From positions 202,009,750-202,073,749 of the forward strand of contig NC_134570.1 of NCBI RefSeq assembly GCF_050947875.1: a stretch of 64,000 bases of DNA, written 5' to 3'. Numbering within the stretch: the first letter of the stretch is position 1; each line of letters starts with the position of its first letter. The stretch comes from Dermacentor variabilis. Taxonomy: Eukaryota > Arthropoda > Arachnida > Ixodida > Ixodidae. Below the pieces are notes generated by a model. It did not search any database, had not been told where the DNA came from, and worked only from the letters and a program-made list of their open reading frames with translations. Both the position numbers and the translations under genes were made by a program. This document shows positions 11,131 through 45,077 of this stretch, piece by piece.

Positions 11131-14100
11131 TAAACAGGTTTATTAATTTCCTTTTACTTATAGGTGATGCCTCACATTAGTTTTTTCCTTGGACCAAAGT
11201 GACTGCAAGGTTTTTCCGCCTGCAAATACTTGCATAGTTTTCAAAGATAATTCCCTCCCTGCTTTGTCTGCTTGATTTGAATGTAAGTTACATTACACAG
11301 AATGTATACCCCCTGCAATGCCAGGACAGGCGAAGCAGGTACTAAATGAATAACCACAAAAAGATTTTCGAGCGAGCAAAAATGGCATGTGCAATAAAGA
11401 TATGCGTAGATGTCCCGTTGGTGTTGCTGTCAAACAAGAAATTGTGATATCGAGAGACTGAGCAAAATAACTAAATGTGTGCTTGCCAAACTATAGCTGT
11501 CATTTGCACCTTGATTGTGACTTAGCTTCCAAAAGAAGTTTTCTTTGTTTTGTCTTGTTCTTTTTCTGTTAAAATGAACTTTTTTCTTTGTTTACTTTTG
11601 TTTGGGTTTTTGTAGCTGTATCATGTGCACATGTGACCAATAATGCCGTCTGGAAGTAAGTGGTGGCTGGCATTTCTCACTGCCTGTCGTTTGTTCAATG
11701 TGTGTACTAAAGTCAATAGAGCACCAACCAGTATAAACCAGTGTGTTGAAATTGTTTTCTTGTTTTAGTATGAATGATCTGACTGGTTATGTGCCCAAAT
11801 AAACAATTAGATTATGAAAACAAAGTTCATCAGAACATGTCATTCGTTTTACTTATAATTACCCTATTTCAACTGCAGAACCCACATGTTCAGGCATGTA
11901 GATTTAAGTAGAACAAGTCATTTTGCGATTCTTAGTTCTGAACAGGTAAGAGCAGTGCTAAGGACACAAAGTGAGTCCACACAGATAAATGGCATGGTGC
12001 ACTGTGCACTGACTGATAATTGATATGTTTTTGCAACAGACAAGCAAATAAATATCCAGTAACGCCTTGTCAAAGGCACGAAAGCACATAAAGAGGCATG
12101 GGGGGGTCACATACAAATGTGCCATGGTTGTAGGTTTGTTAACAAGCATGCCACTTTCCTGTAACTTCAAAAAACAGGTGCTGTACTGACGCATTCGTCT
12201 TTTTTTGCTGTTGTTATTTTGTGGGATTTGGTTAGTTTCTGGGTTAATGGTTACTGCTTTCGCTAACATGTTGCACTTGTGAAATTCGGGCCGTCATCTG
12301 CACTGTTTACAGTGTATGTACCCTAATGGTCACATTATAGTGGTGCTTAATCGTGAAGGCTCATTCAAATATAGACTTGTCTGTTCTACATATGCTTTTC
12401 TTCATGCCAAAGGAATAAGATATACTATGTTTGTGTCAGAAGGAAAGAAACTGAGACTGGTGTCTATTATTGCACATAAATCTACGCTTAGTTGCGTTAA
12501 CATTTTCGCATAATTTCAACAACTTATTTGGGGCATTTCTGTAATATTCACTCTGGCTTATCCACTTAGGTGTAAGGAATAAAGGCAAAAAAGCAAAGCA
12601 TTGCAGTGGATCTAACTTAATGCTCTTGATTCTTGTTACCTTCTTGGCAGCTTTCTTTTTGGAAAAGCATATGTACAAAAGCATGTTTGGACCAAATAGG
12701 CTGCTGTTTGCGAGGCTTTGCAAGCACCACTATAACATGACAAAAGCAGTGTGTGGCATTGGTTGTGCAAATTCTGGTGTAATGACACCACAAAAAGTAA
12801 ACGAAGAAAGATATGTACGCAAATGACACAAGCACCGGATCTCACTTCAAGCTTTGAAATAAGGAAGCAGGCAATATTTAATAAAAGGTGGAGACATGAT
12901 GTGATAATACCTGTTAAAAGAAATTCTTTATGCAGTGCAACTAATGGATCAGTGATACATTTGTCCTTCTTTTTAAATGTTGCAAGCCACAATTACCTTT
13001 CATGTTGTCAGGTTGTAATACCTGGCTACAACGCAAGTTTTGTGGAACACAGGACTGCAGTCACATTCTTTGCAGTATCTAACATTGTGTGAGGGAGGAT
13101 TGTTTCACACAGATGACTCATACTCCCTCAATCTCCCTCATTTCGCATTAATAGAGCATCCCATCTGTCCGATGTAGGCATGGCCTTATGATGGCAGCAG
13201 ACTACACAACGCTTCCGGCCTAGCTCACTAGATGCATATTGTGCTTCAAGCCACAGCCAACCTTTTCCCTTTTTTGGCTTCTGCCTTTTGTTACAGCTCA
13301 AAACTCTCCTAGCAAGGGCCTGAGAAAACAATGATTTGTGCAACTAAATTAGGCATGAATATGGAATATATTAATGAGATGATGAAGTAAAAAAGTGGTT
13401 GCAGTTGTTTTGTATGCATTTGTAATTTTCATGGGTAATTGTGTAGGTGGTTCCTACGGGCAAATTTTTTTTTCTGTATGAAACGTGGAGAGATTTGCTC
13501 TGATGAGAAAAAAAGACTGAAGCCAGGAAAACAAATCAATTTGTTTGTTGCGTGCAGCACAATTTGCAGGCGGTGCACTGTGCAACGGAGGTTATGTACA
13601 GTCTGCCATTCCCATCCAGTCATGCTTGCATTGCATAGACACACATTATAATAATTTGAGATTGAGGCTAATGAAGTTTGTGTGCAACAACTCTCATCCG
13701 TCCATTGTGATGCACTGCAAAATAGATTGGTTAGTTCCTGTGTTCTTCAAAACTCGTAGCCAGAAATTATGAGCAGACGTACATAAGATAATTAAGCTTT
13801 GGAAGATTAGCACGAATAGGACAAATGCATCAGTCATTCTCAGTTACATTGCACGAAGAATTTGTTTTTGAAATAATGACGTCACTTCATGTCACTACGT
13901 GTTGTATGTGATGTCTGTTTTGTTATTAAAGCCAGAGTTGAGGATAGGCCCTTATGCCCTGCATGTCTTTGTCTTCGTTTGCTTCTGTGGTGCATTTACA
14001 CCAGAATAAATCCATGACAGGAGCTGCCAGTCCATGCAGTTATACTACATTGGGCTCAGTACGGCTGGCGGCCTCAATGTGACGACTTCGAAGTAGCAGT

Positions 14101-16912: not shown

Positions 16913-17100
16913 TTTAATAGCTTGCTCTGAAATACAGCCCAATAACTACACTAAATTATGTAGCTTGTTTGTGTGATGAGTCCCAATTTCTTAATTTAGT
17001 ACTTTGACATTTATCATATTTGTGTGCTAGTCCATGCAATATGCCGCTGATCGGCCTCATTATACAAGCAACTGTTAATTTGGAATGGCTTATTCAAGCA

Positions 17101-17503
17101 ACTTAAACTTACTGCACAAACACCTAAGATGGACCACAAAAGGAAGATACGACACACACTGGCGCTAACTTCTTTATTTCTTCGTCGTCGATGCAATATA
17201 AACCCTAGGCCACACAACTGCACAGGCGCCCAGATTACATTACAGAGATCTACCAAATTATCACATATGCAAACGTAGCAAGTCAAATTCAGATGGGTGC
17301 AGGGACAAAGATATGTCATTGATGCAATTATCACCTTGACTTTTTATGTGGTAGGCTTATAAGGCAAGCCGCACATGCTCATTCTTGCTTTTGCCAAGAA
17401 TCGATGTGCCATCAAGTCGTGTCCCACAACTGTTGCAAGGGTTTATATGCACAACAAGGTGCACTCCTCTATCTACATTTTTGTTTACTTTTGCGCATGT
17501 TCC
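17101..17503 (-). repeat. Left arm of a ~400-bp inverted repeat (possible Penelope-type 3' region)
   Basis: Reverse complement of 17764-18176 with scattered mismatches; 260 bp of unrelated sequence lies between the arms. The arm contains CACACACTGGCGCTAACTTC and a TATAAACCCTAGG stretch. I associate these with 3' regions of tick Penelope-like elements, which are often found with an inverted partner, but no RT or GIY-YIG remnant is present. An alternative is a foldback DNA element. Confidence 0.6.
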
Positions 17504-17763
17504 CCGAGTCGCTCATTGACGCAATGCCCTATCTAGCCAAGCTATGTCTTACCACATGAGAGTGGAATGGTATAAACCACGCCGACAGCGCGCGACACGT
17601 ATAAAGCAACATGCCGAATTTGGCATCCTCCTCTGCTCTCTCCGCAGATGTGGAAGCATAGCTTTAAAAGCTTGTTCGGCGCAGAAAATGCCAAAGGAAC
17701 ACTCTGCCTGCAAGCAACTTTCTTGAGTTGATAGATGACCTTATGTGTTTAAGGGACCATGCA

Positions 17764-18176
17764 GGGAACATGCGCAAAAAGTAAACAAAAATGTAGATAG
17801 AGGAGTGCACCTTGTTGTGCATATAAACCCTTGCAACAGTTGTGGGACACGACTTGATGGCACATCGATTCTTGGCAAAAGCAAGAATGAGCATGTGCGG
17901 CTTGCCTTATAAGCCTACCACATAAAAAGTCAAGGTGATAATTGCATCAATGACATATCTTTGTCCCTGCACCCATCTGAATTTGACTTGCTACGTTTGC
18001 ATATGTGATAATTTGGTAGATCTCTGTAATGTAATCTGGGCGCCTGTGCAGTTGTGTGACCTAGGGTTTATATATGCATCGACGATGAAGAAATAAAGAA
18101 GCCAGTTAGCGCCAGTGTGTGTCGTATCTCTGCCTTTTGTGGTCTGTCTTAAGTGTTTGCGCTGTAAATTTAAGTT
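17764..18176 (+). repeat. Right arm of the ~400-bp inverted repeat
   Basis: Pairs with 17101-17503. It includes ATGAAGAAATAAAG before the GCGCCAGTGTGTGTCG motif, so a polyadenylation-like AATAAA is read on the plus strand. The sequence after the arm (18177-18230) continues with TTATGTACCAACTAGGC. No target duplication was identified. Confidence 0.6.
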
Positions 18177-20071: not shown

Positions 20072-20924
20072 TTACTTTGTGCGCAAAAAATAATTTTCAG
20101 CAACTTTTGCTCGAAGTAATTTTGCCCTCTTTCTGGCTGCTTGCACCTGCTCCGTCAGCAATGCCTCACTGTTCATTTTTTTGGAAAGGAAGTGCATGCG
20201 CATGACAAGATAAAACTTGATCACATTAGCAGTCACCTCATCATAATGATTATCATATCCTAGTGGCGGCACAAATGCTTTGCCTGGCCCGTCCAGGATG
20301 CTCCAAAATAATTCACTAAAAACTGCATTACTGTCGAGTGTGGGACGAACTATTTCTTCTATGTGTTTGATGATGGTGAACATTCTGAAAGACGGTTCGC
20401 ATAAGCACCTTGGCTTCAATGACCTCGGCTCTGTCAAAACGCTATGCGAGGGTCGTGGGTCACGCGCATTTGAAGGCACAGAAGCGCTTTCCAGTGGTGG
20501 CACAAAGCACTTTACCACACACCTTAGGCAAGACACGGATTTGGTAACTTTCTTCAGTGTATATCCAGCCAGGTAATTTCTTGTGCTCCTGCTTTCTGGT
20601 ATCTCTATTCACCCAAGTCGTCCATGTGGCCTACTGAAAGACTCATCCCACGAAGCTTCTTGTATAGCTTTGCTTCAACTGCACCTTTCAGCTCAGACGC
20701 ACCCTTTGCCTTTTGCCCCAGGCTGTTGGGAAGAGGCACGAGAACACCATTGGGAGCGCCAGAGCAATTTCCTCTGACTGTGTTTTCCACAGGTGTGAAC
20801 AAAGACAACAATCTATAAATCTGGCTCAATCTGGCTGCAAATCGGGCTATGGATGGGTGGGCATCGTCGCCATGAAATGAACTGACAACACCGAAAGATT
20901 TTTGAAATGAATCAACAAAGCATT
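20072..20924 (-). pseudogene. P-like transposase, last exon (C-terminal part)
   Basis: Minus-strand exon starting after an acceptor-like CACTCACAG. It enters at phase 1, which matches the phase-1 end of the upstream exon at 21081-21276. It reads SFGVVSSFHGDDAHPS then QIYRLLSLFTPVENTVRGNC, the conserved GDDxHP...YRLLSLxxPV pattern of P-element-type transposases with a THAP domain. After a stop/frameshift near 20605 the product continues as RNYLAGYTLKKVTKSVSCLRC, a YLAGY...C..C block, and ends at TAA (20072) overlapped by AATAAA. The polyadenylation signal overlapping the stop supports this as the true 3' end. The exon is broken by one frameshift. Confidence 0.6.
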
Positions 20925-31315: not shown

Positions 31316-32547
31316 CTGCCTATACTTGTGCTTGAGCAAATTGTTGCGTACACACTTCAGAGCATGTGGCACATCACACAGGAAATACAGGTACGCGCGC
31401 TCAGCCAGGCATGGATGTGGTTTCTTCTGAGAAGGTGAGGTTACGCTGCCGCTGATTCCCATCTGATGCCACATAGAGCGATTCTTCCCATCCCCGTCAC
31501 TGACTACAGCGATCACCATAGCACCATGTTTATGCAATTGAATTACTGCTTTCAACACCAACTCTGCTAAAATCCTGCCAGGCGCAGCACCTTTCATGGC
31601 AAAGGTGGCAATCGGTTGCACCCAGCTCTCCAGAAGTGGTACGAACATCCGCACGAGCGCATGATCGGCAAGTTGGCCAGTTCCTTCATTTTAAATGCCA
31701 TCGTAGTCCACAAAACCATCAAGTTTGAAGGTTTTCTTGTTAAAATCGTACGCCTGGCGTAACCTAATTTCATCCAAAATCAGTGTACCGAACTTCTTCA
31801 CACCTACTCTGTTGCCCACCTGTATCCAATAGCTTACATACAGAGACGATTGAAACCATACTTGCATGGTATTCCTTTCAGAATTTGTGTGAGACGGCTC
31901 AGGGTGGGCAAGGGCAGCAGTTATGTCAGATAGAAGCTTACATGCTCGAGGGCTCGCTTTCCTCAGCATTGAACAATTCAGAAGCCAGTCCGCATTGTAC
32001 CGCGCGCCACACGGAGAGTTTCCTCTCTAATGTTTAACCGATGTCATAAATGCAAGTCGCTGTAAAGGCGGAAGTTCAGCCAGTGCTTCCTAGATTCTGT
32101 TAACGGGGGTTTCAGACAGCCTTTTCTTCAGAGCCAAAATTTCCTTCTTGCGCTATTGGTGGGCAGCAGCCGCCATAAGCAGCTTCTTCTTCACATTGTG
32201 TAGTTTCTGATATCGCTTGAGCGTTGCGCTCGGAGCCTTATTGCTCAGTCGAAGTTTCCTTTGTAGACTGAGACAACGCGCGCAGAGTAGTTGCTTTATA
32301 AGTACTTTGCACTCCTTGTGGTGCGTATTATCTGATGTCGCCGTGTCACACTAGCCTGCTTTGACGCCCGCGCATGTGTTCAAGCTGTCTGCTTCTCTCA
32401 GGATTCTTTGCATAGTTGCAATGCTAGTCGCAGCTCGAAATAGCCTCTTGTGAATTTTGCTGTAGCCATTTATGCAGCAAATACCATCCTCTTCAAGCAC
32501 AACAGTTTTCATTACTCGCAGATGTCCGCCTACCAGTTGCCTCATAT
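31316..32547 (-). pseudogene. P-like transposase, catalytic-region exon, truncated by gypsy insertion
   Basis: One minus-strand frame runs from the gypsy target site (32547) to a donor (AGGCAG/GTGAGC at 31316), with about five in-frame stops and no frameshift. It contains the leucine-rich stretch ILALKKRLSETPVNRI, then LILDEIRLRQAYDFNKKTFK with FVDYDG, IAVVSDGDGKNRSMWHQMG and DVPHALKCVRNNLL. These correspond to the RNase H-like catalytic core of P-element-type transposases (acidic residues in DEI, SDG and DVPH blocks). Most stops are single transitions from Gln/Lys-like codons, so decay is recent enough to keep the frame. Confidence 0.75.
32544..32547. repeat. Left 4-bp target duplication (ATAT) of gypsy element 1
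   Basis: ATAT here and at 45078-45081 flank the LTRs exactly. With one copy removed, the minus-strand P-like frame runs open across the junction, which confirms the insertion. Confidence 0.8.
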
Positions 32548-32964
32548 TGACACGTGTAGTTATCTTTATCGGGCGACCACGTTTCGCCGCTTAACAAATG
32601 TAATCGCACAGCGCGGGACGCGCCTGCATGTATCCGATGTTTCTGGAAAGTTATCGATCCTTCTATTCTGTGTCTATTGTCGCCGAACTTTATGTCATCT
32701 GATTTCATCGCCTGCCGCGAATGGTGTAGATATTTGTGGAAGGCACGCAGGACCCAACGATTAGTCTGGAACATTCAACGACTGTTGTATAAAAGCCGAC
32801 GCGCTTGACCCGCTGATCAGATTTTCGACGATCGCCGACTATGTTCGCCGCTTTGGTTGTGCTATAAGTGTAGCCTGTTTTGTGGGCACAGGTTCGCCCA
32901 ATAAAATCTAGTTTTGCGTTTCACAGTATTGCTACTGTGTTATTAACGTCACCACCACGTGACA
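32548..32964 (+). mobile_element. Gypsy element 1, 5' LTR
   Basis: 417-bp LTR starting TGACACGTG and ending CACGTGACA. TATAAAAG lies at about 32786 and CCAATAAAATC at about 32897, giving a promoter and polyadenylation signal in the plus orientation. It aligns end to end with 44661-45077 with roughly 24 mismatches by eye (about 6%). It is followed directly by TCTGGTGGAGGTGCTGGG, a primer-binding-site-like leader. Confidence 0.9.
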
Positions 32965-32980
32965 TCTGGTGGAGGTGCTG

Positions 32981-34125
32981 GGTAAGTCCGGTCTCGAACG
33001 GTAATTCTTGCCGTGCAGATTCCAGTCAGCGTAATGAGGTGTCTTCCAGCGGTCCGAATTTGGGGACCCTCCCATGCAGTCTTAACCTTCTTCAACTGGG
33101 CGGCGATGTGTCCACTCATTACGGAGTAATCGGCCCCTGTGTCGACTAAGGCAGTGACTGCATGGCCGTCGAGAAGCACGTCGAGGTCGGTGGTTCTTTG
33201 TCTGGCGTTGCAGTTGGGTCTTGGCGTCGGATCACGGCTGCGTCGTGTTGAACTCAAGCTGGAACGTCGCGTCGTCTTTCGTCGGAGTAGTCTTGGCTTC
33301 CCGACTTCTTCGGGACGGCGGCGTGTCGTCATTAGGTCGTCGAGATGGTTTCTTCGTCGTCTTCGTCGGCGGCGGAGGATCTTCGTCAGTTCGAAGAACA
33401 GCAACCGCACCTCCATCGGTTGCTGCTTTTAGTTTTCGGAATATGGGCTCGCTTACCTGCCCCGGGCTGGGCCAGTGTATGGTCGGCGCTGCGGCGACAG
33501 GTAGCGGCCTGGTGATGGCGAACGCGACGGTCGTCGCGAGCTCCACTGAGTAGCGACGAGGTAGTCGGCGATGTCACGAGGGCATTCACCTACCCGAGGG
33601 CGCGGGGCGTTGACGGCGAACCCTCGCAATCCCAGGTCGCGGTATGGGCATCGACGGTACACATGGCCGGCTGCTCCGCAGTGCTAGCAGAGCGGGCGGT
33701 GGTCAGGAGCGCGCCAAACGTCTGTCTTCCTCGGGTAGCTGCGCTGGGCGACGGGTGGGCGTGCTGGCGGTGGCGGCAGTGGTCGACGGAATTGCGGCGT
33801 TACAGGGCCCTGGCGCGGTCGTGGAAGCGGGCCTTGACAGCGGGCGACGGCGGCGTAGGTCATCGCTTCTGGCTGGGACTGCGATGATTGTGATTGTACC
33901 TCGGGAACTGTGAGCGATCGCTGAACTTCTGCTTTGACAACTTCGGCGATTGAGGCCACTTGAGGTTGCGTTGAAGGGAAGATCTTCTGAAGCTCCTCTC
34001 GTACGACTACGCGGATGGTCTCGCGCAGGTCGTCGGTGGGCACTGATTGAACGCCGGCGTAGCTTGTTGGCTTGGTGCGTCGGTCGAATTGCCGGTTCCG
34101 CAATTCCAATGTCTTATCGATGTTC
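32981..34125 (-). pseudogene. Gypsy element 1, gag C-terminal half and protease start, inverted
   Basis: Read on the minus strand this starts inside gag (NIDKTLELRNRQFDRRTKP, then TDDLRETIRVVVREELQKI). It passes the Pro-rich linker to KTDVWRAPDHRPLC (start of the zinc-knuckle region) and YRRCPYRDLGLRGFAV, and ends with protease: LDVLLDGHAVTALVDTGADY, containing the DTGA catalytic triplet, then ARITVRDRTYPA. The last codons run into the leader rather than the rest of protease. Frameshifts split the frame at least three times. Orientation is opposite to the LTRs and integrase of the same element. Confidence 0.75.
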
Positions 34126-34416
34126 GTCGGAGAAGACTTCTGATCTGTTGCTGCTTACTCATAGGAAGACTTGGATTCACGTCAAAGTCTGGTTCAGGGA
34201 CTATGCTCATCGGGGTAGATGCGGCTGAATCCGAGAGGACAAGAACATTGCTGGTTTCCACAATTTCCTCGATATATGCGATTGTCGTGCCCTTCTTGCT
34301 GTGCCTGAATTCTTGGCTGAAGTTGGTTAGCATAACTTGCACTTGCCCTCCGTGGAGTCGAGCGATCCCTCTTGCGACGCAAATTTCACGGTCGAGTAGT
34401 AGATGTTGGTCGCCCT
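34126..34416 (-). pseudogene. Gypsy element 1, protease-RT spacer, distal half, inverted
   Basis: Minus strand: DQHLLLDREICVARGIARL, VQVMLTNFSQEFRH, then EPDFDVNPSLP and SKQQQIRSLLRR. In related pol polyproteins this is the spacer leading to RT. Here RT is absent and the sequence passes directly into gag at about 34125. The other half of the spacer is at 42935-43192, on the far side of the 8.5-kb insertion. Confidence 0.75.
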
Positions 34417-35260
34417 CCCTTACAAAAATGACTTTAGACTGTCTATAGAAAGTCTATAGACTTTTAATAGACGACCTTTCCTTTCTATAGATTGGGACTT
34501 TTGTTAATACAAAGTCTATAAACGAAAGTCGATAAAGTTTCTATTTCTTTTTGTCTATTCGCAGTCTATAGACGGTCTATAGAAAAAAGTCGATAAGGTG
34601 TTTGTTTCCTTTTAGTCTGCTTCCCCGCATAGAATACCTACAGACGAAAGTCAATACAATTTCTATCCATTTTGTCCATACTTTGTCTATAGACTTTCTA
34701 TAGACGAATGTCGATGAGGTTTCTATTTCTTTTTGTCTACTCGCAGTCTATAGACGGTCTATAGAAAAAAGTCGATAAGGTGTTTGTTTCTTTTTTGCCT
34801 ACTTCCCCTCTATGGACTACTTATAGACTAAAGTGGATACAGTCTCTACCTATTTTTGTCCATACTTTGTCTATAGACTTTCTATAGACGAAAGTCGGTA
34901 AGGTTTCTATTACTTTTTGTCTACTCGCTGTCTATAGACAGTCTATAGAAAAAGTCGATAAGGTGTTTGTTTCTTTTTGTCTATTTCCCGGACTATGGAC
35001 TACTTTTAGACGAAAGTCGATAAGATTTTCATTTCTTTTTGTCTGCTCGCCGTCTATAGACGGTCTATAGAAAAAATTCGATAAGGTGTTTGTTTCTTAT
35101 TTGTCTACTTCCCCTCACATGGACTACCTGTATACGAAAGCCGATACAGTTTCTATTTATTTTTGTCCATACTCTGTCTATAGACTCTCTATATTATGGA
35201 CAATAGTCGACAATGTTTCTATTTTTTCTCTACTCCCGATGTATTGAATGTCTATAGAAG
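34417..35260 (+). repeat. Left subterminal array, about 180-bp period
   Basis: The repeated unit contains TTTCTATTTCTTTTTGTCTA, a pair of GTCTATAGAC-like palindromes, and AAAGTCGATAAGGTG. Pairs of palindromes recur at about 34562, 34745, 34927 and 35050. Point mutations are common, so the array is not freshly amplified. Confidence 0.85.
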
Positions 35261-37764
35261 AAAGTCGATAATATGGAATTCCGTGTTCCCATACCCCCCG
35301 CCCTCTGCGAACGCGATGATATGGCACTGGTTCATGCACGACGGCACCGCAACCCCGGCGCGGCGGGCAAACCATGCAGACTTCTAGTCTGCGTTCGGTG
35401 CAGCTGCACCGAACGAGGATTGCGGCGGAGCAGGCACCGTCCGAGTCACCAAGGTTTTCCAGGCACCCGAAGGCCCTAAACCTGGCTGCTTCCCGGACGT
35501 ACACTTCGGGAAGACCAGGTGGTGGAGGTCAGATGGTAAAGATGTGGCAAAGGTGGTGAATAAGTGGCGAAAGCCGGGAGACCAGGCGGTGAATTCACCA
35601 CCTCTGAGTTGTCGTGGTCTTGCATGTCTATAGATTAACAATAGACAAACATCGTTAATCTGGGCCCAACCCGTGTACGCTGTAACCAAGCGCAGGTACC
35701 GGTGGATAATACATAGCTGCGTTTGATATAAGCCACTGAAGTTGTATACTGCTGAGATTGCTGTGGAGCCTATTTGTAGACATTAGTATACACATAGTGT
35801 ATACCTCCGCATTTGTTGACCACATATGATCTACGTAGTCGCTCTCGGCAATCCCAAGACAGGCTTCACAGTTGTCGCATCACTTTTGAGGCAGTAGAAT
35901 AACGAAAGCAAAACGCCGATCCAATTGTTATAATAGATGTTATGAACGCCAGCTTCACATACGAGTGGATTCCAAACAGGCATCAAGCTAGCAGCAAAGA
36001 TACTCGTAATGTTTGTAGCTGACAACGCGGACTTTGTGAATGTGCGATGAACCGATGTCGCGCATGTGGTGTTCGCGTTGTGTGTCGTCCGATTCTCGGA
36101 TACTTTTCACATTGTCTTCACATCTCGGCTGCGTCACTAACATCGGGCAGTTTTTTGTTGCCTGATATCCTTCACTATAAACTCATCAAAGTTTCTCATT
36201 CACTTCAAATAGGTGCCAAATTCTCTGAGCCCACCCAGTATTTCGCCGGCGGTATGCCTGCTCAGCCACGCATATGAGTACCTCAATGCTGTACTGATTG
36301 CTTTGACCTATCATCGGAACAGAAAATTAGCACTAACATACGTGCGGGCATCACATTTGGCGATACGCTGGAAGATATGCTACAAATACGCTGTATTACT
36401 CATCGACGCTGGCAATAATGCGTCTGAAACGTCTGAAGGGCCCTGTAACGGCTTTTACAAACAGCGCATTCATGTTAGCGTTCCAGTCTCATACGATAGC
36501 CCACAGCGTTTGTCATACAACCTGCCAGCGCATATCCTTCGTCCACGAAAAAAATGAAGGAGGAAAAGGCGCTCACACTCCTCCGAGAGCGCGCGCCCTC
36601 CCGCGCGGAGCTCACGCGCATGCTCGGAGCTCTTGCGCATGCGCGGCGGTGCGCCGTCTCAACGAGTGCGCCAGGCACGTAAACGGTTGTACCCGTGTGC
36701 GGTGTCTCCCTGAACGTTGGTGTCTGTGTATGCGTGTCTTCTTTGTGGCATCACACGTCAACTACACTGAACGGTAAGCTTTAGCAAAGATGTTTTGCGT
36801 CCATAGCTCATGATTATGTGAGCGCATTTCGTAGCGCAAACCGGCTGCATGTAGCGCAGGCGACTCGGGTATAGTGTCGGTTTGTCGTTGACATGGTTTG
36901 ATAACGCGCTCTTGTTCTCGCTTCTACTATACGGAATGTTTTACGGCGAGCGATCGCTCGGGCTTGTTGATTTTAGCATTATAGTTTAGGTGCGTAAAAA
37001 AGGATGTACACCATGTTTTAACTTGATACTGAGCTACCACTAAGCGGATTGTGTGTGTTGGGCAGCCAGTGTGGTCGATCTCATTTCGTGGCGCTTGATC
37101 CGGCCGCGATGAATGCTGCGCCGCATGTGTAGTGAAATTCTCGTGACACGCTTTACGTATATATGTCGAAATTGTGTTAGCGTTTTGTTAGTTAGTTATT
37201 GTTATTGTTATTGTTAGTGTTCAAACAGACAGGCATAGTTGAATAACTGCTAGCATACTCGGATGAAAGGCCGTGTTTGCGGGGCATGCATCAGCAGTGT
37301 GTGCGCTGCCGTTTTCGCATAGTTTAGAAGTAGCAGTATTTTTAAGGTTCCTGGCAGCCAATCTAAATAATTTTGGGAAGTTACAGCAAGCAAAATACGA
37401 GACTTGAAGAAATATCTAGCAGAAATCTCTAGATTCACCCAATCTATTTATATGCAACCACAAACGCTTTTGGAGCATGAAACCTGCGACAAGCTCGGTC
37501 ACTCGCGGCTTCGCAACTTAGCCGAAAAAATTGGAGAACAAAAAATTAGTCGCTCCGGGAAGCACCTTTACACGTTTCGAACTGAAGGCATTGCGTTTGA
37601 CGGTAGTTGGAAGATTTCTTTTTTGTCTCATTTTTAAACAGTTTAGCAGCAGAAGTTATCTTTCGAGCTATATGAAAAGCGTTAAGCGCCTTCCGATGCT
37701 TCGGCGTTATGCAGTTTACGTGCTCTTAATCACAAGGCAGCTGCTGGCGCAGATTCGCATTGTG
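35261..37764. other. Interior of the 8.5-kb element: CpG-rich block, palindromes, no recognised gene
   Basis: 35270-35620 is GC-rich and contains a perfect 24-bp palindrome (CGTTCGGTGCAG and its complement, 35392-35415) beside a short GCAGACT/AGTCTGC hairpin. 36560-36720 is CpG-rich (GCGCGC, GCATGCGC) and could be a promoter. Open frames (for example 36213-36557 plus) show no domain I can name. If the element ever encoded its own transposase, I cannot see it here. Confidence 0.45.
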
Positions 37765-39720
37765 AATTACGAAGGAACAGCGCCAACGAAGACGAAAGCG
37801 AATGCTAGTGCGACGCGAGTGAAAGGCAAGGCGGCTGCGATGTGCAAAGAATTAGATCTGAGCAGGCTGGCCAATGACATTGGTAACAGCAAAAGCAATG
37901 CCCTTTCCGTGTTCTTTACGGCCAAAACGCGCAAACTGTCCGTGCCATTCAGAACAGTGGTCAGCGAAAATAGAATTTGGCAGATTGTGTTAAGCAAGTT
38001 TCTCCAAAAGCACCTTACATTCCTTAAAGTTGAAGATTCGTACACCGCAAAGAGTTCAAAAGATGTTAGGTTTCTTGAGGAATGTACTTCCATTGGCTAT
38101 GTGTTTTCAGTAGATGTTGAAGACTTGTTTTACTCTGTGCCCCACGATGCCTTGTTTCGTTGTGTCAGAGATGCAATAGAATGTAACGGTGCAGTAGAGT
38201 TCCAAAACTCCTCTGGCGTGTCAATGTACAATTTTATGAAAATGCTAGAATTTTACCTTGATGTGACGTTCATCTCTTTCGAGAACAAGTTTTATCGGCA
38301 AAGACAAAGGATTTTTATTGGATCCTGCGTAGCCCCGGTGCTTACTAAGATTTTCTTAACCTGTATTTCTTAACCTTGGAGCCAATTTTAACAGGAAAGG
38401 GTGTACGAAAAGTGTTCAGGTATGTTGACGATTTTTTAATAGTTTTTAACAAACTGAACGTGTTGACTTACACAGATGGTGTAAGCACTGTCCTAGACAG
38501 CTTTAAAGAGGAGGGACGGGGCTTGGTTTTCACGCATGAGCTACCTTTGCAGGGGCGATTACAGTTTTCAGACATTCACATTACCTTGGGGGAAGATCAT
38601 GTATGTTGGCAGTACGCACCTCGAGCACAAATGGAGCTTCTTCCTTATGCGTCGGCGCATTCAAAAACCGTAAAACTTTCCATCGCAAAACTTTGTCTTG
38701 AGTCTGCTCTTGTGAAATCGTGTGACCATGCAATGCGTGCGAGTTTTGACAAGCAAGTTGATAGGTTGGTTTCGGCAGGGTTCCCTAGCACGGTTATCAC
38801 AGCAGTGGCTGAAGCGATCTTGCAAAAAATCAAAGGTGCCATGGTTGAGAAGCCGTGCGCGCAAGAAAAACTAGCTTCGAAGCCGGAAGTGGTTCCGTAT
38901 GTACATAGGATAGCCCACAATATGAACAAGGTGGCAAATAGACACGGCGTCCCAGTCGTGTTTTCGGCTCCGCGAAAACAATCTCAGCTCTGCGCCCGCG
39001 TCGCTAGCCAGGGTTCCAAGAGCAACTGCACCAAAAAAACATGGAAAGCAGTTTCTAAAGTGCTGCACCGGTGTGGTATATGAAATACCTTTGACCTGCG
39101 GGAAAACCTATGTGGGCCAAACGGGCAGATGCGTGAATGATCGTGCAGCTGAACATGTGCGGTCGCTGAAAGAAGGAGGTGCGCATCTTTCGCAACATTG
39201 CGCAACTTGCACTGCCTGTGACCGAGCCGCAGAACATTCGCCACGAAAACAATGCCAGTACTGCAAGAAGTGTGAACCACGGTTCAGAGAGATAAAGATT
39301 CTTGGCAGAAGCAGGGAAACAAAGGCACGTGAGGTTTTGGAAGCCTTCCATATAAAGAAAAGAGGAAAAACCTGTGTTAGTGATACTTCCGTGACCCTCT
39401 TCAAAAGCGAAATGTCCTATCTTGAACGGCTTGGCAGATGATGCATTATGGTTATTGTGCGCATGTCCGTGATTTTTCTTATATTTGCTGAATTTTCGGT
39501 GAATCAAGATAGATGAAGTTGGCGCTTGTCCTGTGTCGTCCTCCCCTCTTGTGATCGTCTTCGTTGGCGCTGTTCCTTCGTAATTGAAGTATGCAACATC
39601 TAGCCCAAATGAATGTTGTCCTGAAAATTCGCATTGTGCCAGTCGTGCATGGTATGAAGCCATTGTGGTGCGTAATAAGTGTTCCGGTTTTCATTGCTGT
39701 TGCATGTAGTGCCGTCGTCT
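37765..39720 (+). pseudogene. Penelope-like element (RT plus GIY-YIG endonuclease), 5'-truncated and broken
   Basis: Reverse transcriptase: IGYVFSVDVEDLFYSVPHDA (motif A), FIGSCVAPVLTKIFL (motif B) and, after a frameshift at about 38373, FRYVDDFLIVF (motif C). After a second frameshift near 39073 comes the GIY-YIG nuclease: VYEIPLTCGKTYVGQTGRCV, with RAAEH following, then a Cys-rich segment and EVLEAFHIKKRGKTCVSDTS ending at 39441. RT followed by C-terminal GIY-YIG is diagnostic of Penelope-like elements. The N-terminal ~250 residues are missing. At 37765-37797 there is an inverted copy of 3' sequence from about 39549-39583, a common feature at Penelope 5' ends. It lies inside the 8.5-kb element. 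Confidence 0.85.
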
Positions 39721-42100
39721 TGGACAGACTGCATACAATATGCGCTGTACAATAGAAAACAGAGCCAAATTATCGATTTGGTGATCTTTTTTTAGTAGAT
39801 AACGCACAGATTATTCAAATAATTCAGTGGATATTGCATTTGTTCTACCCTTATCAACACACCTAAGTGATCGTAACATGTTTTAGTTGATAAGTAACCT
39901 GATCAGTACACCCCCATTCATGTGCATTCTACTGAAAGTGTGGCAAATGTATTCATCTCGAAATATGAGAAAAGAGACATTGCAGACTGTTCTAAGCAGA
40001 AATAAATTGCAAATCTTAACGTGATTGTTCAAAACTGCAGTCAGTATGCTGATCATGTTCGTTCCGCACCGGCATATTGCATTAACACCTGAAAAATGTG
40101 CACAGTTCAGCCGGGTACCTTTGTTTCAACAAGTATTATTATAGGAATCGTTTGGGATTCTCGCATTTCTTTTATTTTTACATGTACACTGTGTGTCACA
40201 TGAACCTGTCTTGAAACGAAACGTACCGTTGCTGGCACCGGCGACCATTACGGTTGTCTAACTGCTTATCATACTGTAGTATAACGAAACATCATAATGT
40301 TACCGATTAATATTGCCATGTAGTCTTTAGTCAGAGGTAAACAAAGTTAACTAGAGGCATAAGTGATGAGAGCAAATTATATTGAAAACTACTATTGAAC
40401 CGTAAAAATAACTCATTGTATAGTTATCCCTCACATTGTTGCATTTGCTTTACGTGTGTCTCTGTGTCTTCCGTGCTGTACTCGTGTGGCCATTAATCAC
40501 GAACTTGCCGAAGCCCTTGTCAGCTTTATTAAACAAGGGATTCAAGTCAGTTGAATCTAATACTGCATGTCAAGTGACTGACGTGTTATTCGTTTTATCT
40601 AAATATTATGGACTGCAGTACTTGTCAAGCATTAAACCACAATATTTTTCATTGCACTTAAGCTGCAGGCGTCATAGATTGCCAGAAAATTTTCATGAAA
40701 ACAGCCAGGGAAGGCTTGGAAAAAGATCGGGAAATTTTAAAATGGCCACATAGGTATGCTGTCTTGTTATATGTCATACAAAGTTTCCAGAGAATCTCTG
40801 TGTTAAATATAGTTTTAAAACGTTTCACCTCATAAAAATTGAAGGAAATTGGTTCAATTTATTGAAAAAAAGAAGAAAGTCAAACATACTGACAAGGCAT
40901 TTCTTACTCAATATATTTTTTTGCGTTAACTAAACGTCCTGAACCTTGATAGCCTAGAAAAATTTTTCATCTTTCAAAGCACCTTAAATAATTTACTCTA
41001 ATAGAATTCATTCGAACTATACTATCAGTTCTGTTTCCTAGGAGGTGCATATCTGTCGTGCCATGACACAAAGTGCTCGTGTGGTATTTCGGGTGCTCAT
41101 GTGGTATACCTAACTTGGAAACCTGTTAGCACGCCGAAGATGCCTCATTACCTGTAAAAAATTAAGTGACCATATCAAAACAATCAACCCATCTGCCTTC
41201 TGTGGAAGTTATGTCCAATGACCCATTCATTTAAAAGTATGAGAACGACATTTAAATGTGTATTAAGCAAAATAAATTACAATCTTAGGCATGATACTGT
41301 GAATATTCCAGTCACGTCTTCTGAATATATCCCTCTGCACGGGCATAGTTAACCACCAACCAAAAAAAAATGTACAGACAGCCCAACTCGGTAACGTTTC
41401 AGCAAGAAATATAGAGACCATTTGGGATAAGTACAATAATGCATCATATATGAACTTGTCATAAAAGGGAACATACTGTTGCTGGCACGAGCAGCAGTTG
41501 TGACTATTTATTTGTTCACTATACCATGCAATAAAAAATTGCATAAAGGTACTGATTTGTATTGACAAGCAGCCATTAGTCATAGTTAAACCGCATTAAG
41601 TATTGACTTAGATGGTTTGAGCAAATATATTAAGCTGCTTAATGAACATACAAAGAATACACACTTATTATTTTTGCCTCATATTGCTGCATCTACTTAT
41701 TTGCAGCATACACCTGCAGAACCTTTGGGACTAATGACACAAAGGCCAAGGCCAGCCTGGCGACCATGCTTGCCAAGGAGTAGTGTAAATATTTAACCTG
41801 TTTCCATAATAGCATACGACATGAATTTAAGGAATTCATCTATTATATCGAGCAATAAAAACGCTGAATGTATTGCCGGTGCATTTGTTTTTATTTTTCG
41901 CACTGCATGATTCAGCACTATATAAATTCTTTCTGTTTATGCATATGAAAGTACAGCTGGTTCAGAAGCATTATTAATCTACTAACGGTAATGCATAAGT
42001 GCAGACGAAAAGGATCAGGTGCACATGTATAAATACATTCAAAACTTTTTCCTACCGCATGTAAACAAAAATGTAAACTTGTAGACAGCCGCTATGGAGT
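39721..42100. repeat. AT-rich interior with a diverged ~450-bp duplication
   Basis: About 39995-40450 and 41258-41705 are diverged copies in the same orientation. Shared landmarks are AAGCARAATAAATTRCAAATC, the GTTGCTGGCAC...GAGCAG/GGCGAC block, GTCWTTAGTCA, and a CCTCATATTGCTGCAT-type end. No coding potential is evident. The intervening DNA is AT-rich. Confidence 0.5.
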
Positions 42101-42934
42101 TATGGCCTTATACACTCTTTGTAGACTTGTCTATAAAATGTCTGTGTCTATAGAGTGTTTATAGATTAATGAAAATTCATGTTTGTTGACAAATGTCTGC
42201 AGAATGTCATAGAAAAAAAGTGTATCGGACTATAAAGTTCTGTTTTTGTAGACTGAAGTCTATAGAATGTCTATAGACTATCTATATACATTTGTATATA
42301 GATATTCCATAGACTTCAGTCTACAAAAGTAGAACTGTATATATAGTTCTACTTTTGTAGACTGAAGTGTATAAAATGTGTACAGACAAATGTCATCTGT
42401 AGACATTCTATAGACTTCAGTCTACAATAGTAGAACTGTAAGCCTATAAACTTGTCCATAGACAATCTATAGACAGTCTATAGACTCAGACTTCTTATAG
42501 ACTAGTCTATAAACAGTGTATGGCCATAAGTGTATAGACAGTCTATAGAATGAGACTTTTTATAGACTAGTCTATAAAAGGTGTATGAGCATAAGTCTAT
42601 AGACCGTCTATAGACAGTCTATAGACTCAGACTTCTTATAGACTAGTCTATAAAAAGTGTATGGCCATAAGTCTATAGACAGTCTATAGACACTATATAG
42701 ACTGAGACTTTTTATAGACTAGTCTATAAAAAGTATGGCCATAAGTCTATAGACTGTGTATAGACAGTCTATAGACTTAGACTTTTTATAGACCAGTCTA
42801 TAAAAAGTGTATGGCCATAAGTCTATAGACTGTCTATAGACTAGCCTAAATAAATGTCTATAAACAGTCTATAGACTTCATTGACAAATGTCTATAGACT
42901 GTCTATGGACTTTCTATAAAAATTTTTGTGAGGG
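42101..42934 (-). repeat. Right subterminal array, about 65-76-bp period
   Basis: The unit is AGACTTYTTATAGACTAGTC, then TATAAAAAGTGTATGGCCAT, then one to three GTCTATAGAC palindromes. At least five units lie between about 42490 and 42850. The unit differs from the left array, sharing only the palindrome and the terminal ~30 bp. The two ends are therefore not simple inverted copies. Confidence 0.85.
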
Positions 42935-43192
42935 CTCGATGACGCCTTCTACGTCAGCGGGTCTTTCGGCGCCGACGGAAATAATAATGCTGGAGCGCGG
43001 CGGGATGCTCACTTGATCTTCGAGCACACTCAAGGCGTGGTGACTACGACAGCTCTCCGGCGGTATCGCTTGATCTTGCGACAGCGTTATCGATTTCGAC
43101 TTCAGGTCGACGACTGCGCCATGTTGATTCAGGAAGTCCATGCCGAGAATGACTTCTCGTGAACACTGTTGGAGGATAACGAAGGTGGCAGG
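42935..43192 (-). pseudogene. Gypsy element 1, protease end and spacer, proximal half, inverted
   Basis: Minus strand: TYPATFVILQQCSREVILGM then DFLNQHGAVVDLKSKSITLS, ending at AERPADVEGVIE before the insertion. It is the direct continuation of the protease at 32981-34125, repeating the Tyr-Pro-Ala codons found at the end of that segment. VILGMDFL is the conserved flap-downstream motif of gypsy proteases. Confidence 0.8.
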
Positions 43193-43194
43193 GT

Positions 43195-44649
43195 ATGGCA
43201 GGGCAGGGCAGGTACTTAAAGGACCTTTCAGGACGGCTGGCGCGGTGGAGCCTCAGACATCGAGAATATGACGTCACGGTAATATACAAGTCCGGCAGAA
43301 AACACTCCGACGCCGACTGCTCATCGCGCGCCCCCATCGATCCCCCGCCGCAAGACGACGAGTATGACGACGCCTTCCTTGGCATAATAAGCGCGAAAGA
43401 CTTCACTAAACAGCAACGAGCAGACCCGGAGCTAAAAGGCCTCGTCGAGTATTTGGAAGGGAACACCGACGTTGTCCCTAGGGCATTTAAGCGCGGGTTG
43501 TCTTCGTTCACGCTACAAAACAACCTGCTCGTGAAGAACGTCTCACTAGTCCGTGCCAGCTACCTTCTTGTTGTACCGTCAGCGCTGCGTCTAGAAATAC
43601 TGCACGCCCTACACGACGATCCAACCGCTGGGCACCTCGGATTCTCCGGGACGCTGTCGAGAATACAGGAAAGGTATTACTGGCCGCGTCTGACCGCCGA
43701 CGTCGCCCGTTACGTCAAGACATGCCGAGACTGTCAACGACGCAAGACACCACCGACAAGGCGAGCAGGATTACTACAGCCGATCGAACCTCCTCGCCGA
43801 CCATTCCAGCAGATTGGGATGGATTGGTTGGGGCCGTTTCCGATGTCTACATCCGGGAATAAGTGGATCGTCGTGGCGACGGACTATCTCACCCGCTTCG
43901 CTGAAACTAAAGCTCTACCAAAAGGCAGCGCAGCCGAAGTGGCGAAATTATTCGTCGAGAACATCCTGCTGCGACATGGTGCCCCAGAAGTCCTCATCAC
44001 CGACAGAGGAACGGCTTTTACAGCAGAGCTCACCCAAGCCATTCTGCTGTACAGCCAGACAAGTCACAGGAGGACAACTGCCTACCATCCGCAGACGAAT
44101 GGTCTCACGGAGCGCCTGAACAAGACCCTCGCCGACATGTTAGCAATGTACGTCGACGTCGAGCACAAGACGTGGGATGCGGTCCTGCCGTACGTAACCT
44201 TCGCTTACAACACGGCGGTGCAAGAAACAACACAGGTCACGTAGTTTAAGCTGGTGTACGGCAGGAACCCGACGACGACGCTCGACGCCATGCTGCCCCA
44301 CGTCACTAACGAAGAGAATGTTGACGTCGCTAGCTATCTCCAGGGCGCCGAAGAAGCCCGACAGCTCGCCCGCATACGGATCAAGAACCAACAGAGAACC
44401 GACAGCCGACACTACAACCTCCGACGACGCTTCGTTGAGTACCAGCCCGGCGACCGTGTTTGGGTATGGACGCCGATACGCCGACAAAGACTCAGTGAGA
44501 AACTACTTCGACGCTATTTCGGACCCTACAACGTCATCCGACGTATTGGCGCACTGGACTATGAGGTCGTGCCAGACGGCAATTCGCATTCACAGCGGCT
44601 TTTGTTTATTACTTTGGTTTGTTTGCAGCATCGGGTCGATGCTTCTTAA
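43195..44649 (+). pseudogene. Gypsy element 1, RNase H end and integrase
   Basis: Starts in the last RNase H segment (LKDLSGRLARWSLRHREYDV, HSDADCSSRAP). The HHCC zinc domain follows (HALHDDPTAGHLGF...CRDCQ). The integrase core carries the expected acidic residues: IGMDWLGPF (Asp), LITDRGTAF (Asp) and GLTERLNKTL (Glu). A TAG at 44242-44244 interrupts the frame before FKLVYGRNP; the frame then continues to 44649, including the GDRVWVWTPIR block of the C-terminal SH3-like domain. RT and most of RNase H are missing. It is in the LTR orientation. Confidence 0.85.
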
Positions 44650-44660
44650 GAGGGGGGTAT
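44647..44660 (+). promoter_or_regulatory. Polypurine tract of gypsy element 1
   Basis: AAGAGGGGGG followed by TAT directly abuts the 3' LTR. In Ty3/gypsy elements this primes plus-strand DNA synthesis. Its position confirms the LTR boundary at 44661. Confidence 0.75.
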
Positions 44661-45077
44661 TGACACGTGTACTTATCTTTATCGGGCGACCACGTTTCGC
44701 CGCTTAACAAATGTTATCGCACAGCGCGGGACGCGCCTGCATATATCCGAAGTTTCTGGAAAGTTATCGATGCTTCTATTCGGTGTCTGTTGTCGCCGAA
44801 CCTTATGTTATCTGATTTCATCGCCTGCCGGGAATGGTGTAGAACTTTGTGGAAGGCACGCGGGTCCCAACGATTAGTCTGGAACATTCGACGTCTGTTG
44901 TATAAAAGCCGACGCGCTTGACCCGCTGACCAGATTTTCGACGATTGCCGACTGTGTTCGCCGCTTTCGTTGTGCTATAAGTGCAGCCTGTTTTGTGGGA
45001 ACAGGTTCGCCCAATAAAATCTAGTTTTGCGTTTCACAGTATTGCTACTGTGTTATTAATGTCACCACCACGTGGCA
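44661..45077 (+). mobile_element. Gypsy element 1, 3' LTR
   Basis: 417 bp, same orientation as 32548-32964. TATAAAAG at about 44899 and CCAATAAAATC at about 45010 are conserved. It ends CACGTGGCA and is followed by the second ATAT target duplication at 45078-45081. Confidence 0.9.

Follow-up and report, generated by a model that had tools for sequence, protein, structure and literature searches.

What kind of mobile element has interrupted a gypsy retrotransposon of the tick Dermacentor variabilis, and by what machinery could it have moved? The question is raised by a stretch of 64,000 nucleotides from contig NC_134570.1 (NCBI RefSeq assembly GCF_050947875.1, positions 202,009,750 to 202,073,749 of the forward strand; hereafter the window), in which 8518 bp at 34417–42934 lie within the pol region of such a retrotransposon. 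We find that this element is a true, well-bounded DNA transposon insertion into the gypsy retrotransposon and consider it probable that it belongs, as a non-autonomous member, to the animal TRC branch of the CACTA (EnSpm) DNA transposons. The original prediction for this DNA, made from the sequence alone, had noted a likeness to CACTA/EnSpm elements and had left the family unrecognised: the likeness holds, as CCC ends with a 2-bp duplication fit the animal TRC branch, whereas the second statement can be revised, since the structure allows a TRC-type CACTA assignment. CCC-starting ends and 2-bp duplications have been published for CACTA elements of the animal TRC type, so that these two features of the sequence make the family recognisable.

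Boundaries of the insertion

The features that define the element and its site are as follows.

34417–42934, no strand assigned: whole element, 8518 bp, delimited by inverted ends, CT flanks and reopening of the host frame
34415–34416, plus strand: left copy of the target duplication, CT (read from the sequence, 2-base rule)
42935–42936, plus strand: right copy of the target duplication, CT (read from the sequence, 2-base rule)
34417–34465, plus strand: left terminal inverted repeat, beginning at the outside with the 13 bp CCCTTACAAAAAT; 49-bp inverted match, 79.6%, to 42934–42886
42886–42934, minus strand: right terminal inverted repeat, beginning at the outside with the 13 bp CCCTCACAAAAAT; BLASTN inverted match to the left end
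34007–34416, minus strand: pol spacer of the host gypsy downstream of the interruption, in an open frame
42937–43252, minus strand: protease C-terminus and spacer of the host gypsy upstream of the interruption, in an open frame

Direct reading gives CCCTYACAAAAAT as the termini of the element, with CT on either flank. The two ends pair in BLASTN as a 49-bp inverted match at 79.6% identity, an extent that is partly due to a palindrome (see below) sitting in both ends, and CCCTYACAAAA has no further occurrence on either strand of the window besides the element ends. The interrupted region is the spacer between protease and reverse transcriptase of the gypsy pol on the minus strand, the parts of this gypsy having been named by eye. 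For an empty-site test, 240 nt of host sequence from each side were joined with 0–4 bases dropped and the open frames scored: the minus-strand frame across the junction is open only when 2 bases are dropped, with 0, 1, 3 and 4 all failing. When the rejoined frame is aligned with another gypsy of the window, the score is 93, whereas 200 shuffles reach at most 52. The junction codon is ungapped in this alignment; a 2-residue gap stands two residues ahead of it, hence the spacing differs by 2 residues from the second gypsy.

A control tempers what the ends themselves can contribute: within the window, 181 inverted 13-mer pairs (at most 1 mismatch, 2–12 kb apart) also carry a 2-bp flank duplication, 2 of which begin with CCC, the pair of the element included. 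Ends of 13 bp with a 2-bp duplication are thus weak evidence by themselves, which counts against the assignment, and given how common they are in the window the boundary rests on the host frame and not on the ends alone. With the frame reopening solely upon removal of the element plus two bases, the exact boundaries, inverted ends and CT flanks of the original prediction are borne out.

The host gypsy is itself rearranged. Its long terminal repeats (32545–32964 and 44658–45077) are identical at 396 of 420 positions, and its inside is scrambled: an integrase-like frame lies on the plus strand (43180–44244), gag- and protease-like frames lie on the minus strand, and the protease is found in two parts (32949–33428 and 42937–43252). 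This looks like the outcome of an inversion, perhaps through self-integration.

Family placement and the search for a transposase

Two structural features of the TRC branch are present in this element: the inverted repeats start with CCC (CCCTTACAAAAAT and CCCTCACAAAAAT), and the target duplication is of 2 bp (CT/CT, in a single copy). A number of other families can be set aside through their ends or duplications. The target duplication is TTAA for piggyBac and TA for Tc1/mariner/pogo, both of which are ruled out by the CT flanks; Mutator-like, hAT and P elements duplicate 7–9 bp and are ruled out by the 2-bp duplication. Helitrons and Helentrons produce no duplication and carry no terminal inverted repeats, and are ruled out by the presence of both. 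The end type of plant CACTA/EnSpm elements is likewise ruled out, as the ends begin with CCCTY and not CACTA.

As the original prediction had stated, no transposase is found in this copy. Twelve frames read through the interior (35270–37750 and 39600–42100) gave no transposase domain in Pfam; their lone match, MavL, was rejected (E 0.084; 12.2 bits, below the cut-off of 27). With 120 TRC-like proteins as queries, tblastn over the window returned 618 matches, none with E <0.01, and a protein search with a 116-residue minus-strand frame at 35178–35528 returned 12 candidates, none at E ≤10. The missing gene is as expected of a non-autonomous copy, though it leaves membership to structure. In another part of the window, a 178-residue minus-strand frame at 20072–20608 resembles by eye a transposase fragment that we take to be of P-element/THAP type.

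Could the transposase be supplied from elsewhere in tick genomes? A search with an animal transposase consensus scored 3056 proteins at E ≤0.001; among the best 120 of these 3056, three are named as tick proteins (P0189 of Ixodes scapularis, P0202 of I. hexagonus and P0213 of Dermacentor andersoni). When 30 members picked from the best 120 were compared with Pfam, 19 matched DUF4218 and 3 matched Transposase_21 at E ≤0.01 (best E 2.9e-06 and 3.5e-06, respectively). Ticks hence hold a possible source of transposase, with no sequence tie to the ends of the element.

Several points weigh against the TRC assignment and against this source. The assignment is structural and comes from a single copy, in which the Transposase_21-type gene of the TRC branch was not found. 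The query was a hand-typed consensus, precomputed domains show DUF4218 or Transposase_21 in just 7 of the best 120 of the 3056 proteins, and the 30-member sample was picked by ourselves, at least 5 members having domain matches that were already known. In case of the tick proteins, P0213 falls below the Pfam cut-offs (Transposase_21: 15.8 bits, E 0.0083; DUF4218: 16.2 bits, E 0.0094), and Pfam finds neither domain at 0.01 in P0189 or P0202; the tick proteins would belong to the TRC transposase family as set by this hand-typed consensus, not by the SmTRC1 protein.

An alternative that we regard as unlikely, albeit the best of those considered, is that the element belongs to some other, perhaps unnamed, superfamily of DNA transposons with 2-bp duplications and that its CCC start is coincidental: the lack of a transposase in this copy, the divergence of the ends from published TRC ends past CCCT and the absence of any sequence joining the tick transposases to these ends all agree with it, whereas proteins of a related transposase family are present in ticks, and CCC with 2 bp is the very combination on which Hydra Spongebob (EnSpm-4N1_HM) was assigned to TRC (PMC4298943). 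We retain the TRC branch as the preferred placement.

Subterminal arrays, palindrome and interior

Both ends of the element carry tandem arrays, whose units were taken from Tandem Repeats Finder, which gave other periods too.

34417–35275, plus strand: left subterminal array, unit of about 182 bp with a 61-bp sub-period; 8 exact copies of GTCTATAGAC
42090–42934, plus strand: right subterminal array with units of 65 and 76 bp; GTCTATAGAC present exactly 13 times; long hairpins in its inner part

The palindrome GTCTATAGAC is thus found exactly 8 times in the left and 13 times in the right array, for which a first-order Markov model expects 0.002 and 0.004 copies, and not once in the 62,296 bases of the window outside the arrays (6814 bp of interior and 55,482 bp outside the element). 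Allowing 1 mismatch, there are 43 sites in the window (17 left, 24 right, 1 interior and 1 outside), compared with an expectation of 1.25 and a maximum of 4 over 100 shuffles. The spacing is also regular: among sites with at most 2 mismatches, 8 of 20 gaps between neighbours in the left array and 17 of 39 in the right are of 11 bp, a step of about one helical turn. Between the two arrays 33 12-mers are common (either strand), each of which has, in the left array, at least 6 of its 12 bases within a palindrome of at most 1 mismatch. Two arrays of different units (about 180 bp and about 65–76 bp) sharing one palindrome were what the original prediction had described, and the count that it proposed, run here within the window, agrees with it: 21 exact copies in the arrays and 0 in the remainder.

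The palindrome also appears to be better kept than its surroundings. For six 61-mers of the left array, palindrome columns are conserved at 0.937 against 0.763 for spacers, and none of 62 circular shifts gives as high a value; the figures are 0.887 against 0.741 in three left 182-mers (1 of 184 shifts as high) and 0.928 against 0.786 in five right units (2 of 77). Set against this are the weak result when four right units are taken in a different register (0.847 against 0.583, with 11 of 86 shifts as high), the picking of the units by hand at palindrome pairs, with the outer and inner extremes of each array excluded, and the selection of the motif for being common before conservation was tested. 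The better-kept palindrome columns are hence compatible with constraint, short of proof. Used as a literal literature query, GTCTATAGAC retrieved no paper on transposons by title; the motif pair was found 0 times in viral contigs and in 1 stretch of a prokaryote genome collection (a Hyphomonas metagenome-assembled genome), for which we estimate a chance expectation of about 0.2.

The two arrays differ in composition as well: the right array is nearly free of CpG (observed/expected 0.19, 0.14 and 0.0 in 250-bp windows from 42167), and the left array is undepleted (0.9–1.4). The inner right array contains long near-perfect hairpins at 42240–42332 and 42342–42440 with matches to microRNA models below gathering scores; of 34 Rfam matches at E ≤1, all under gathering scores, 33 fall in the right array, and we read these as hairpins. 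Between the left array and an extra near-palindrome at 35626 lies a GC-rich segment (35276–35625), by eye possibly another nested piece.

The interior holds the following pieces.

37765–39626, plus strand: nested retroelement, 5'-truncated and frameshifted (tblastn relatives, weak RVT_1, 31-bp inverted repeat)
37753–37764, plus strand: ATTCGCATTGTG, the 12-bp target duplication on the left of the nested retroelement, exact pair with 39627–39638
39627–39638, plus strand: right 12-bp target duplication of the nested retroelement, exact pair with 37753–37764
39858–40450, plus strand: first copy of a diverged direct duplication, aligned to 41130–41698
41130–41698, plus strand: second copy of the diverged direct duplication, aligned to 39858–40450

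The nested retroelement, presumably Penelope-like (a name that no search returned), spans three overlapping plus-strand frames (37522–38373, 38349–39083 and 38926–39441), which hold pieces of a reverse transcriptase and, after it, a segment similar by eye to a GIY-YIG nuclease; in Pfam the RVT_1 match is weak (E 0.011), and no nuclease domain is recognised. A protein search returned 101 relatives at E ≤0.001, all 101 matching the nested retroelement by tblastn at 1e-5: these are uncharacterised proteins, and every one named to an organism is from ticks (Dermacentor, Ixodes, Rhipicephalus, Haemaphysalis, Amblyomma and Ornithodoros), the most identical being D. andersoni P0054 with 86% over 190 residues. 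The N-terminal part present in longer relatives is missing here, and the first 31 bp of the sequence repeat a piece of its 3' part in inverted orientation (37765–37795/39555–39585). The ATTCGCATTGTG pair is the sole direct repeat longer than 7 bases between the edge regions (repeats of 7–15 bases tested). This retroelement landed in DNA of the element and is hence cargo, neither mover nor machinery; without it and one copy of the 12-bp duplication the element measures 6644 bp. The original account of the element accordingly stands for its boundaries, ends and arrays and falls short for its interior, where the nested retroelement with its 12-bp duplication was overlooked. The two copies of the interior direct duplication align over 549 bases, 383 of them identical, with a score of 262, whereas 20 shuffles reach at most 51.

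Such a mosaic interior, together with tandem arrays on both sides, a host gypsy that is itself rearranged and the abundance of inverted 13-mers with 2-bp flank duplications in the window (the 181 pairs above), is what might be expected if there were no transposon at all and satellite arrays and other repeats had been brought into the gypsy by recombination; this is very improbable, given that the host frame is restored by removing exactly the element and two bases, with inverted ends at that very point, and that the exact palindrome occurs nowhere else in the window. Least probable of all, to a degree that we regard as negligible, is that the Penelope-like sequence was the mover and the whole 8.5 kb one composite retroelement: although it is the sole coding sequence recognised inside, near the middle of the element, it is contradicted by its own nested 12-bp duplication, which with the inverted 5' piece delimits exactly 37765–39626 within the element, and other parts of the window match this protein family too.

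These further tblastn matches lie at about 12258–13400 and at 17100–18176, the latter with an inverted repeat that aligns over 413 bases at 95.9%. At 36550–36780 a CpG-rich segment contains a GCGCATGCGC motif followed by a splice-donor-like ACG/GTAAGC, and could by eye be a promoter with a first exon.

Proposed mechanism and comparison with known systems

Taken with its ends and its duplication, the missing transposase gene suggests that the element, as a TRC-type transposon, would have moved in trans by cut and paste: a TRC transposase encoded elsewhere would cut at the CCC ends and make the 2-bp duplication. The palindrome arrays would then be putative docking sites for a dimeric helper protein that joins the ends, by analogy with TNPA of plant CACTA elements: the sites are symmetric, often one helical turn apart, present at both ends and better conserved than the spacers, all of which points in this direction. 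A helper is preferred over the element's own transposase, which the original prediction had proposed as the binding protein, because plant CACTA repeats are recognised by the separate TNPA. A more far-reaching proposal, which we put forward tentatively and hold to be somewhat less than an even prospect, is that a dimeric helper may read the palindrome and its spacing alone, with arrays that can be rebuilt from new units, as a TNPA-like platform in an animal CACTA relative. A single palindrome kept in two differing arrays is a lead on a helper protein and does not amount to a system of a new kind; should it serve for docking, the symmetric array motif would offer a route to the helper of an animal CACTA relative. 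Recognisable TRC-like ends would also help to name part of the unclassified repeats of D. variabilis, which are given as 24.67% next to 2.48% for DNA transposons (Table 3 of PMC12341941, whose text presents them as shares of the repetitive content).

Among the literature matches listed, no description of this element was found by title or abstract opening, and it is most likely a new non-autonomous TRC-type CACTA member. Classification via ends has been used for Daphnia CACTA elements (PMC2884549), and SmTRC1 appears in PMC13155389 as a citation only. SmTRC1 and its kin are animal CACTA relatives with a CCC core in Schistosoma, Tribolium and Aedes (DeMarco et al. 2006, PMC1636069): the Tribolium end is CCCTAGTAGCACCGAATATTTGTAAAA, beginning CCCTAGTAGCACC, and the Aedes end is CCCAGTCAAC; 7 of 14 SmTRC1 copies have 2-bp direct repeats, SmTRC1 holds a tandem-repeat block, and the elements, of 4.5, 5.2 and 9.2 kb, include two insertions into LTR retrotransposons (elements with long terminal repeats; PMC1636069). 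The tick element shares with them the CCC-starting inverted ends (CCCT in Tribolium as here), the 2-bp direct repeats, tandem repeats and insertion into an LTR retrotransposon; unlike them, whose full copies have a Transposase_21-type gene, it yielded none, and it has arrays at both ends and a different inner end sequence. Hydra Spongebob is alike in its CCC start and 2-bp duplication, is 5.8 kb long, and its exact transposase was likewise unfound, owing to stops or frameshifts; it differs in its end, CCCAGCCAACATTGAC, and a palindrome array is unmentioned in the excerpted description (PMC4298943). In plants, the CACTA elements En/Spm, Tam1 and soybean Tgm have reiterated subterminal motifs that vary between families, those of En/Spm being recognised by TNPA, a protein distinct from the transposase, and non-autonomous copies can move in trans (PMC2613891). 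The subterminal arrays of a reiterated motif in the tick element resemble this arrangement, whereas its ends are CCCTY instead of CACTA and its duplication is of 2 bp instead of the 3 bp (ATA) of the soybean element (PMC2613891).

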